Assembly: GCA_018303805.1 (NCBI GenBank) | Contig: JAGVXL010000001.1 | Coordinates: 61,932 to 110,207, forward strand | Direction: 5' to 3' | DNA: 48,276 bases | Source of the DNA: Candidatus Pacearchaeota archaeon | GTDB taxonomy: Archaea > Nanobdellota > Nanobdellia > Pacearchaeales > DTIR01 | Shown: positions 17,544 to 29,712 of the stretch, piece after piece | Layout: every line of letters starts with the position of its first letter | How positions within the stretch are numbered: position 1 is the stretch's first letter | The notes under the pieces: model-generated | What the model was told of the DNA's origin: nothing | Seen by the model: the letters and a program-made list of their open reading frames with translations, nothing else | Databases searched by the model: none | Made by a program: the position numbers and the translations under genes

Positions 17544-17613
17544 TAAGGAACACATTTCCTTACAGCGAAAACCAAAGGTTTTCGGAGCCACAAAAAGCGA
17601 AAGATTTTTGCGG
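17544..17613. repeat. Three-hairpin array upstream of hjc
   Basis: TAAGGAA-cacat-TTCCTTA; CGAAAACC-aaa-GGTTTTCG; CCaCAAAAA-gcgaaaga-TTTTTGcGG. Confidence 0.75.
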
Positions 17614-25749: not shown

Positions 25750-25822
25750 TCTCTTCTTTAGCAGAGGAAATCAAAGATTTCCTATGCCCCGAAAAGCACG
25801 GCTTTTCGCGGAAAAGAAGAGA
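25750..25822. repeat. Multi-stem structured intergenic element (family 1, copy B)
   Basis: Closing stem TCTCTTCTTT (25750-25759)/AAAGAAGAGA (25813-25822); AGGAAATC-aaa-GATTTCCT (25765-25783); CGAAAAGC-acg-GCTTTTCG (25790-25808). Confidence 0.7.
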
Positions 25823-25882: not shown

Positions 25883-26368
25883 ATGATTTTTGTGCTTAAG
25901 GTTACAACAAACAAGGAAGACCAGGTTGCGGATTCAATAGCTGAAAAAGCCGGGAAAAAACAGCTGTCAGTTTACAGCATAATCCGGCCGCATGGGCTGA
26001 GAGGCTATATCCTTATAGAGGCAATTGACAAGGAGACAGTAGAGGAAGCATGTTTTAATCTGTCATATGTCAAGGGCATAATCCCCAAGACAGTTTCATA
26101 TGATGAAATAAAGAACCTTCTGGAATACACTCCTGCAACAGTAAAGATGGAAAAAGGGGACATAGTCGAGATAATCGCAGAGCCGTTCAAAAAAGAAAAG
26201 GCAAAGATTATCAGGGTTGACAAAGCCAAAGAGGAGGTTGTTGTTGAGCTGTTGGGAGCCGCAGTCCCAATCCCAGTAACAGTAAAATTTGACAATATAA
26301 GGGTTATAAGGAGAGAGGAAGAAAAGCCAGCAGGAGAAACTCCCGCAGGAGAAAACCAGCCAGAATAA
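25883..26368 (+). CDS. spt5: Transcription elongation factor Spt5 (NusG family)
   Basis: MIFVLKVTTNKEDQVADSIAEKA...SIIRPHGLRGYILIEA...MEKGDIVEIIAEPFKKEKAKIIRVD (NGN plus KOW). Confidence 0.92.
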   Translation: MIFVLKVTTNKEDQVADSIAEKAGKKQLSVYSIIRPHGLRGYILIEAIDKETVEEACFNLSYVKGIIPKTVSYDEIKNLLEYTPATVKMEKGDIVEIIAEPFKKEKAKIIRVDKAKEEVVVELLGAAVPIPVTVKFDNIRVIRREEEKPAGETPAGENQPE

Positions 26369-26413
26369 GGAAAAAGGCACAGCGGCAAATCCTTGTTGTT
26401 TCTTAAGATCAAA

Positions 26414-26521
26414 AAGTCCTTTGCTAGGACTTTAGGATGCAAGGAAATTCTATGAATTTCCTGCACAGAAAATCTGAAAGATTTTCAAGTGCTCAGAAAT
26501 GCGTGACATTTCTGACATAAG
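26414..26521. repeat. Four-hairpin intergenic array, copy C (91-nt core at 26431-26521)
   Basis: AAGTCCT-ttgct-AGGACTT; GGAAATTC-tat-GAATTTCC; GAAAATC-tgaaa-GATTTTC; CAGAAATG-cgtga-CATTTCTG. Core matches 28332-28422 at 86/91. Confidence 0.9.
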
Positions 26522-26574
26522 ATATTTAAATACATGCTAATTTTCTAATCTGCGATATAAATAAAAAAGATGAA

Positions 26575-27912
26575 ATGGTGAAGATATACACAATAGGAGG
26601 TTATAGCGAAGTCGGCAAGAACATGACTGCCCTCGAAATAGGTGATGATGTAATTATTCTTGACTGCGGCTTGTATATGCCAGCGCTTGTTGAAGTAGAG
26701 GAGAGAGAAAAGCTTGTCATGAATGAGAAGAAATTAAGGGGCATAGGGGCGCTGCCTGAGGATACTCTGCTTGAGAGACTTGGCTTGAGAAATAAGGTAA
26801 GGGCTATTCTCGCAAGCCATGCCCATCTGGACCATATAGGGGCGATTCCTTATATCGCGCCAAGATACAGGGCAGAGGTTGTTGCAACACCCTTCTCAAT
26901 TGAAGTACTGAACACAATAATGAGGGATGAGAAAATAAATATCCCCAATCCAATTGTGCCAGTAACCCCTAATTCATCCTACACTGTAAATGGCAAAAAG
27001 CAGTATAAGGTTGATTTCATCAATGTGACGCATTCAACACTCCAAACAGCATTGATGGCAGTTCATACCCCTGAAGGAGTTATTCTTTATGCAAATGACT
27101 TTAAGTTTGACAACACGCCGATACTTGGCAAGAAGCCAAATTACGAAAAATTGAAAGAGATAGCAAAAGAGGGTGTCAAGGCATTGATTGTTGATTCCCT
27201 TTATTCAGCAGAGGAAAGAAAAACGCCGAGCGAAAAAATCGCGAGGGGCTTGCTTGAGGATGTGCTGTTAACAACAAGCAACGAGGATGCCTGCATAATT
27301 GTCACAACATTTTCATCGCATATAGCAAGATTGAAGAGCATTGTTGATTTTGGCAGGCAGCTAAACAGGAAGATTGTCTTTCTGGGCAGAAGCCTTGCAA
27401 AATATGTCAATGTTGCTTCGCGCTTAAAACTTGAGACATTCAGCAGGGGCATTCCCATATGCACATACAAAAACCAGGTAGAATCAATACTGAAAAAAAT
27501 TTCAAAGAACAGGAAGGAATACCTCGTTGTCTGCACAGGGCACCAGGGCGAGCCAGGCAGTATCTTAGACAGACTGTCAAAGAACTTGCTGCCTTTCAAT
27601 TTCATGAGCCAGGACCATGTTATTTTCAGCAGCAGGACAATACCTACGGCAATGAATGTAGCCAACAAGCAGCAGCTTGAAAAAAGATTGAAGACAAAAG
27701 GCGTTAGGATATTCACAGATGTGCATGTTTCGGGGCATGCAGCAAGGGAAGATTTAAGGGATTTCATAAACATGCTCCAGCCAGAGCATATTATCCCTGC
27801 TCATGGAGACATGCAGAAATTAAGCAGCATGGCAGAGCTTGCATCAGAGCTTGGCTACCGGCTTGGAAAAGACTGCCATCTAAAGCAGGACATGCAAAAA
27901 CTGGTGATATAA
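26575..27912 (+). CDS. rnj: Ribonuclease J (beta-CASP family)
   Basis: MVKIYTIGGYSEVGKNMTALEIGDDVIILDCGLYMP; SHAHLDHIGAIPY; FTDVHVSGHAAREDLRDFINMLQPEHIIPAHGD. Confidence 0.93.
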   Translation: MVKIYTIGGYSEVGKNMTALEIGDDVIILDCGLYMPALVEVEEREKLVMNEKKLRGIGALPEDTLLERLGLRNKVRAILASHAHLDHIGAIPYIAPRYRAEVVATPFSIEVLNTIMRDEKINIPNPIVPVTPNSSYTVNGKKQYKVDFINVTHSTLQTALMAVHTPEGVILYANDFKFDNTPILGKKPNYEKLKEIAKEGVKALIVDSLYSAEERKTPSEKIARGLLEDVLLTTSNEDACIIVTTFSSHIARLKSIVDFGRQLNRKIVFLGRSLAKYVNVASRLKLETFSRGIPICTYKNQVESILKKISKNRKEYLVVCTGHQGEPGSILDRLSKNLLPFNFMSQDHVIFSSRTIPTAMNVANKQQLEKRLKTKGVRIFTDVHVSGHAAREDLRDFINMLQPEHIIPAHGDMQKLSSMAELASELGYRLGKDCHLKQDMQKLVI

Positions 27913-27942
27913 TCATAGTAAACCAAAAGTTCAAATTCTAAA

Positions 27943-28233
27943 ATGGTAAACAATGATTTGGTTATTGCAATCAAAAATGCTCTTGAAAGAGGGCAGCATA
28001 TTGAACAGGCAGTAATCAGCCTTGTTAATGCCGGTTATCCCCGAGAGGAGGTTGAAGAGGCATCAAGGCAAGTTCATATGCTTGTTCAACCAAACAGGCA
28101 ATTGCAACTGCCTTCAATTCCTATAAACCAGCAGGCAATGGACAAAAGTACAAAAAAGATTATTACGAGGATAATTATCCTGGGTGTAATAGCAGCCGCG
28201 CTTATAACTTTTCTGGTTGTATATTTAGTTTGA
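27943..28233 (+). CDS. Small protein with C-terminal TM anchor
   Basis: Soluble N-part then IITRIIILGVIAAALITFLVVYLV. Confidence 0.7.
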   Translation: MVNNDLVIAIKNALERGQHIEQAVISLVNAGYPREEVEEASRQVHMLVQPNRQLQLPSIPINQQAMDKSTKKIITRIIILGVIAAALITFLVVYLV

Positions 28234-28251
28234 TGTTTCTATTCCTATAAA

Positions 28252-28356
28252 ATGGAAAATAGTCTTTATCTGCCTGCAGAGGATTCCATAATGCTTGCAA
28301 AAGAGGCTGCAAAATCAGGCAGGCACTTGTTTTTAGGATGCAAGGAAATTCTATAA
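28252..28356 (+). pseudogene. Truncated HemK/PrmC-like methyltransferase N-terminus
   Basis: MENSLYLPAEDSIMLAKEAAKSGRHLFLGCKEIL*; PAEDS is typical of archaeal HemK-type N-termini; the frame ends inside repeat copy D. Confidence 0.6.
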
Positions 28357-28422
28357 ATTTCCTGCACAGAAAATCTGAAAGATTTTCAAGTGCTCAGAAA
28401 TGCCACGCATTTCTGACATAAG
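28332..28422. repeat. Three-hairpin intergenic array, copy D (91-nt core)
   Basis: GGAAATT-ctata-AATTTCC; GAAAATC-tgaaa-GATTTTC; CAGAAATG-ccacg-CATTTCTG; all five differences from copy C fall in loops. Confidence 0.9.
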
Positions 28423-28491: not shown

Positions 28492-29712
28492 ATGAAATTT
28501 GCCCATATCGCAGACGTGCATCTTGGGGCTTGGAGAGAGCCAAAGCTGCAAGAGTTGAATTTGGAAACATTCAGGAAAGCGATAGCCATATGCATAGATG
28601 AGAAGGTAGGTTTTGTTATTATTGCAGGGGATTTGTTTGATGTGGCTATGCCAAGCGTTGAAATCCTCAAGGAAGCTGTGTCTGAACTTAAGCGGCTGAA
28701 AGACAGCAGTATAGACTGCTATGTTATTGCAGGAAGCCATGATTTTTCTATTTCAGGCAAAACTTTTCTGGATGTTATTGAAAAAGCCGGCTTGTGCAGG
28801 AATATCTCCAAATTTTCAGAGAGGGATTTAGGCAATGGGGACATATTGACAATGCTTGAAGTGTGCGAGGAAAACAACTGCATTTTTGCAGGCATCCCTG
28901 GAAAAAAGGGGGGGTTGGAAACGAGGACATTCAAAAATCTGCAGATGCAGCCCTTACATGAATATGAGAATAAAATAAAGATTTTCATGATGCATACTAC
29001 ATTGACAGAGGCAAAGCCAAAAGAGCTTTATTTTATTGAGTCTGTTGACACGACAGAGCTGCCTGCTGGTTTTGATTATTATGCAGCGGGGCACCTGCAT
29101 ATTGTTTTTGAGTCAGAGTATAAAGGCAAGCCGGTTATCTATCCAGGGCCTTTATTCCCCAATAATTTCCAAGAGTTAGAGGAATTAAAACAGGGAAGCT
29201 TCTGCATTGTGGATGTTACTAATTCAGGAACAAAAATTGAGCGCAGGAATATCCGGCTGAAAGATGTTCTTCCTGTTCACGTTGATGTTTCAGGCAAAAA
29301 TCCAGAGCAGGCAACACAGGAGATACTGAAAAGCATCAGGGAGCATGATATCAGTGACAAGATTTTAACATTAAAAATTTCAGGCTGCATTGAGGGCAAA
29401 ACCTCTGATATGGACTTTGACAAAATAAACGCAGAAACCACAGGATGCTATGCAATGCTGAGAAACACAAATGACTTGACAAGCTCTAATATAAACATTG
29501 AGATTCAGACAAAAAGCAACAACATACATGACATAGAGAATGAGATAATAAACAGGTATGTCAAGGACGAAAAGGAGTGGGACTTTATCCCCTTCATAAA
29601 CACCCTGCTTCACCTGGACATGGAAAAACAGGAAGGCGAGACAGTCGCGACATTTGAGGCAAGGGTTAATGACGAAGCAGTCAAGATACTTGGCTTGAAG
29701 GAGAAAATGTAA
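28492..29712 (+). CDS. mre11: DNA double-strand break repair nuclease Mre11
   Basis: MKFAHIADVHLGAWREPKLQELNLETFRKAI...FVIIAGDLFDVAMPS...AGSHDFS...YAAGHLHI. Confidence 0.94.
   Translation: MKFAHIADVHLGAWREPKLQELNLETFRKAIAICIDEKVGFVIIAGDLFDVAMPSVEILKEAVSELKRLKDSSIDCYVIAGSHDFSISGKTFLDVIEKAGLCRNISKFSERDLGNGDILTMLEVCEENNCIFAGIPGKKGGLETRTFKNLQMQPLHEYENKIKIFMMHTTLTEAKPKELYFIESVDTTELPAGFDYYAAGHLHIVFESEYKGKPVIYPGPLFPNNFQELEELKQGSFCIVDVTNSGTKIERRNIRLKDVLPVHVDVSGKNPEQATQEILKSIREHDISDKILTLKISGCIEGKTSDMDFDKINAETTGCYAMLRNTNDLTSSNINIEIQTKSNNIHDIENEIINRYVKDEKEWDFIPFINTLLHLDMEKQEGETVATFEARVNDEAVKILGLKEKM

Follow-up and report, generated by a model that had tools for sequence, protein, structure and literature searches.

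Rickettsia palindromic elements (RPE) are short palindromic repeats that occur between genes and also in frame within protein-coding genes, which stay open (PMC10969869, PMC6649704). Mitochondrial hairpin elements have conserved stems and variable loops; tandem insertion turns them into double and triple hairpins, some of which are found in coding genes without a frameshift (PMC2800124). Chloroplast hairpins undergo minute inversions, a change of the same type as the loop flips reported below (PMC2903610, citing Kelchner and Wendel 1996). Here we report on a repeat pair in a 48,276-nt stretch of the genome of a Candidatus Pacearchaeota archaeon (the window) and on a genuine family of mobile DNA hairpins in DPANN archaea. 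The family is undescribed in the open literature searched; we found no account of it in open-licence papers.

The archaeal family is similar in behavior to RPE and to the mitochondrial hairpin elements, a likeness of kind that does not imply kinship. As with RPE, its palindromic repeats are dispersed over several unrelated genes and spacers, and the element stands in frame in conserved genes whose homologs lack it (GatA and, less sharply, Trm1, U32, and uS13). RPE are bacterial, ~150 bp long, and located in open reading frames (ORFs) in nearly half of cases, whereas the archaeal unit, likened to them by behavior, is a double hairpin of ~54 nt that is mostly intergenic. Rickettsia was absent among the pattern-scan matches listed. 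The family shares with mitochondrial double-hairpin elements its two adjacent hairpins, conserved stems, and variable loops, but those elements are from sponges and fungi and are unrelated between taxa, whereas one recognizable core runs across the archaeal phylum. A ~210-bp unit in one genome (G055) resembles prokaryotic MITEs in being multicopy, noncoding, and sharp ended; unlike MITEs, it has no established terminal inverted repeat and target duplication, and a search for Y1 transposases revealed no parent transposon. REP/REPtron systems differ in their associated Y1 (TnpA-REP) gene, which is absent from two carriers of the archaeal family (the window genome, G000, and G001) and is not flanked by the core elsewhere. 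As in the chloroplast minute inversions, a loop between inverted arms flips while the stems are unchanged; the chloroplast flips are at single loci (PMC2903610), whereas the archaeal flips occur among dispersed copies of one repeat family.

The repeat pair and its gene neighborhood

Positions 26431 to 26521 (copy 1) and 28332 to 28422 (copy 2), both on the plus strand, are identical at 86 of 91 nucleotides, and sequence comparison confirmed this match as given in a preliminary description of the window. The similarity (E of ~1e-35 in a one-contig, 575-kb genome) is far above chance, and the two near-identical copies are spaced 1.9 kb apart. Each contains three perfect hairpins side by side, as the same description had claimed, and their loops are 3 to 5 nt long; to these we add a fourth, hp0 (26413 to 26433; AAAGTCCT ttgct AGGACTTT), which is present at copy 1 and has no counterpart at copy 2. 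In copy 1, hairpin 1 (26442 to 26462) reads AGGAAATTC tat GAATTTCCT. Hairpin 2, which is hpA of the family core defined below, spans 26463 to 26492 including an outer GCAC/GTGC stem, the perfect hairpin being at 26468 to 26486, and hairpin 3, which is hpB of the core (26493 to 26515), reads TCAGAAATG cgtga CATTTCTGA and is followed by CAT. The counterparts in copy 2 are at 28343 to 28363 (hairpin 1), 28364 to 28393 including the outer GCAC/GTGC stem (hairpin 2; perfect hairpin at 28369 to 28387), and 28394 to 28416 (hairpin 3; TCAGAAATGC cac GCATTTCTGA). A covariance model of the double hairpin, R1, matched the plus strand of both copies, at 26465 to 26521 (52.9 bits) and 28366 to 28422 (54.2 bits). 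Folding as single-stranded DNA gave z scores of −6.1 to −8.4 on both strands, with 0 of 200 dinucleotide shuffles equally good.

The five substitutions had been assigned entirely to loops. This holds for stems of 8 to 9 bp, but some of the changes affect loop-closing pairs. In hairpin 1, copy 1 has a ninth pair (C-G) that closes the loop and that the TATG/TATA substitution abolishes; in hairpin 3, the changes give copy 2 an additional C-G pair.

The neighborhood is archaeal in character; the genome is that of a DPANN archaeon close to MAGs (metagenome-assembled genomes) of Pacearchaeota and Woesearchaeota. Copy 1 has the Spt5 gene (25883 to 26368) on one side and the gene for an RNase J-type nuclease (26575 to 27912) on the other. 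Copy 2 is placed between a remnant of a hemK2-type methyltransferase gene (28252 to 28356, plus strand) and the gene for an Mre11-like phosphoesterase (28492 to 29712). A small ORF lies between the RNase J-type and Mre11-like genes, and a reading of the sequence points to a Rad50-like ORF in the same neighborhood. The remnant comprises 27 codons (MENSLYLPAEDSIMLAKEAAKSGRHLF) and then runs into copy 2, inside which it meets its stop. In a relative, G005, an intact HemK2/MTQ2-family methyltransferase (TIGR00537, above the cutoff) is encoded between the small ORF and Mre11, and a search of the window genome for another hemK2 copy found none. Copy 2 marks a deleted hemK2 and accompanies the loss of most of that gene. 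Relatives that share the gene order lack arrays at the Spt5/RNase J and small ORF/Mre11 intervals, and no regulatory role of the window copies is evident.

Definition and spread of the family

The family core is a double hairpin: hpA, a linker of the form nnnTGC, hpB with arms TCAGAAAT and ATTTCTGA, and CAT. The most constant hairpin is hpB, with TGC before it and CAT after it; a second hairpin stands 3 to 8 nt upstream in 70 of 94 nonredundant cores. BLAST against G001, a genome of the same taxonomic family as the window genome, returned 16 matches, which on direct reading are hairpin arrays with conserved linkers. Among 55 genomes of the order, 18 matched the covariance model of the two-hairpin core. 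The window genome gave 7 matches and G001 gave 43; both strands of one site may figure in these counts, and the palindromic design inflates double-strand matches. An even draw across the phylum gave 279 genomes, of which 32 contained the exact hpB pattern and none contained a reversed control pattern. Among the matches listed in public genomes, the pattern was mainly in MAGs of Woesearchaeota, Pacearchaeota, and "Nanoarchaeota."

A third core in the window genome (L274; G000:C1:259541-259594) reads TCAGAAATT aat AATTTCTGA for the first hairpin, tagtgc for the linker, and TCAAGAAT tgaag ATTCTTGA for the second hairpin, followed by cat. Two more tandem-hairpin arrays of similar style, with A-rich 5′ arms and short loops, are found in the window at 17544 to 17610 and 25765 to 25808. 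The core model scored below significance at both, and they are possibly diverged family members.

Pattern matches in bacteria were excluded from the family. Most are ATGTCAGAAAT-N-ATTTCTGACAT palindromes, which are symmetric and distinct from the family; perfect examples at L065, L078, L084, L104, L126, L150, and L165 (Pseudomonas, Burkholderiales, and other bacteria) resemble the operator of a regulator, with no relation to the archaeal element. A viral origin was also rejected: the 12 pattern matches in viral contigs, many of them within ORFs, were taken as chance or host derived.

Dispersed units and insertions within genes

Dispersal is seen in G055, which has ~20 copies of the ~210-bp unit, beginning with ATCATAAAAATC and ending with GGCGACATTTTTGTGCA, with sharp ends and unrelated flanks. 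The unit ends are imperfect (ATCATAAAAAT and ATGCACAAAAAT), and no clear target-site duplication was seen. The same genome contains a second repeat family of eight copies.

Most copies of the family are intergenic and few are within genes, which may reflect insertion that spares genes or the purging of insertions there. One reading frame is open across both 180-nt flanks in 6 of the 80 cores with sufficiently long flanks. The sharpest case is gatA of G058, which has an internal 54-nt double hairpin in frame, encoding the peptide MSEIQRISEHAQKPLVFD. Peptides of the GatA insert are MSEIQR and ISEHAQKPLVFDK. The insert is absent from the homologs of seven relatives (49 to 72% identical), and GatA structures (PDB homologs) align on either side of the element peptide with a gap exactly at it. 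GatA is the only empty site resolved to the codon. Other in-frame elements are found in Trm1, a U32-family protein, a large surface-type protein, a membrane protein with a YfhO match, and the N terminus of uS13; the Trm1, U32, and uS13 cases are less sharp than GatA, and for U32 neither the PDB nor the relatives searched yielded a useful full-length homolog.

At the start of the uS13 gene at L142 (706 to 1245), TTTCCGACAT flanks the element on both sides and resembles the element end TTTCTGACAT; target duplication and homology-guided insertion are possible origins of this repeat. At L023 (~1501), a hairpin array lies between repeated pieces of the 3′ end of a tRNA gene (CTGAGGCTTTTAGCCTGAGG), as if insertion at the tRNA had been accompanied by duplication.

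Stems, loops, and competing explanations

The stems either stay the same or change on both sides together; the loops vary. Among 23 copies of hpB in G001 there are 14 distinct loops versus 5 stem types. The stems of the 70 upstream hairpins are nearly all Watson-Crick paired, the exceptions being GT (5), AC or CA (3), and TT (3). In an alignment of 36 cores, 94.2% of cells are paired and 78 double-sided changes were counted, versus 25.5 ± 4.7 in shuffles and 10 to 19 with slid partners; the palindromic design inflates this covariation, and eight hpB pairs are invariant because the search pattern fixes them, which leaves hpA and the inner hpB pairs as the trustworthy variation.

We also compared the loops of matching hairpins among near-identical copies within single genomes. 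One copy in G055 has aaa where its sibling copies have ttt, the hpA loops of G057 show a ttt/aaa flip, and in G058 gta stands against tac. In pairs at least 92% identical, triloops changed at all three positions were always exact reverse complements (three of three families). The window pair is a fourth case: the reverse complement of cgtga, the hairpin 3 loop of copy 1, is tcacg, from which the ccacg of copy 2 differs by one base, and four of five positions fit inversion. The arithmetic by which the preliminary description had derived one flip and one substitution is correct, and its suggestion that loops flip through an inverted-repeat mechanism gains support from the recurrence in three other genomes. 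Loop inversion is real and recurrent. One might argue, from loops that are short (3 to 5 nt), A+T rich, and freely varying in G001, that these differences arose by ordinary substitution and look like inversions by coincidence, but the consistent reverse complementarity of fully changed triloops makes this very improbable.

A structured RNA, acting as a cis regulator or processing signal in untranslated regions with a conserved fold, would suit the strong folding, the paired stem changes, and the position of the window copies between codirectional genes. Against it, copies are oriented at random relative to neighboring genes (16 sense, 19 antisense, 7 convergent, and 8 divergent, by simple ORF calls that include a few chance viral-contig matches), G-U pairs and A-C mismatches are similarly rare, Rfam has no match above the gathering score, and the loops are free to vary or are flipped, whereas in an RNA they are usually what is conserved. 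We rejected the RNA element, which the preliminary description had offered as an alternative, on orientation, the G-U count, and Rfam, and regard it as having little chance of being correct. The other alternative in that description, a small structured mobile element, is supported by the dispersed units of G055 and the in-frame insert of GatA. Its expectation of many dispersed copies in relatives was borne out by the G001 BLAST matches, the pattern scans, and the core model, and its claim of stem conservation by the G001 counts and the double-sided changes, with further copies found and stems varying less than loops. Chance local palindromes duplicated once segmentally in the window genome, with no wider family, would explain why only two near-identical copies lie there, 1.9 kb apart; the core model matches across the order and the exact pattern in the phylum, with its zero control, contradict this idea and make it barely credible.

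Movement by an IS200-like (Y1) transposase, as a repeat of the REP/BIME type, would fit hairpin-forming, dispersed, intergenic repeats, and Y1 genes (PF01797) are present in four of nine carriers (G003, G009, G055, and G058). The window genome and G001, which has the most copies, have none, the core was not found flanking the Y1 genes of carriers, and in one IS200-like Y1 gene (L158, ~2844) the element lies directly behind the MPDHLH motif and disrupts the gene, with its frame shifted. A Y1 mover is not supported, and we think this origin unlikely; no transposase was tied to the family, Y1 being the one family searched.

In our judgment, the window pair quite probably represents two copies of a mobile DNA element that is dispersed in DPANN archaea, with loops flipped and stems re-perfected as DNA. 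Its unit is a double hairpin of ~50 to 60 nt, made of two perfect inverted repeats with loops mostly of 3 to 7 nt and a short linker ending in TGC, then CAT, to which extra hairpins can be added to give arrays of three to five or MITE-like units of ~200 bp. Copies are mainly intergenic, in either orientation, and in occasional cases stand in frame within genes that stay open. The element probably works as DNA, its arms snapping back when single stranded in replication. Template switching also converts imperfect palindromes to perfect ones (discussed in PMC6649704); switching of the polymerase between the arms would account for both the flipped loops that we observed and the perfect stems. Stem conservation need not imply selection on RNA, because template switching is another way for palindromes to stay perfect. 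Copies may be moved by a hairpin-recognizing enzyme that acts in trans, or may arise when replication switches template to a new site. More tentatively, and as a doubtful extension, we speculate that this is an ancient, phylum-wide family without an enzyme of its own, in which template switching in replication accounts for spread and keeps the palindromes, genes are invaded in frame, loops are a natural record of template switches, and stems covary without RNA selection.

Selfish palindromes in protein-coding genes have been described in Rickettsia and organelles, and we found no archaeal report in the open literature. The archaeal palindromes extend to the genes of an amidotransferase subunit and of a ribosomal protein, in hosts whose genomes are very small. 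For repeats of this type, perfect stems and covariation do not on their own demonstrate a functional RNA, and the recurrent loop flips make hairpin template switching directly countable.
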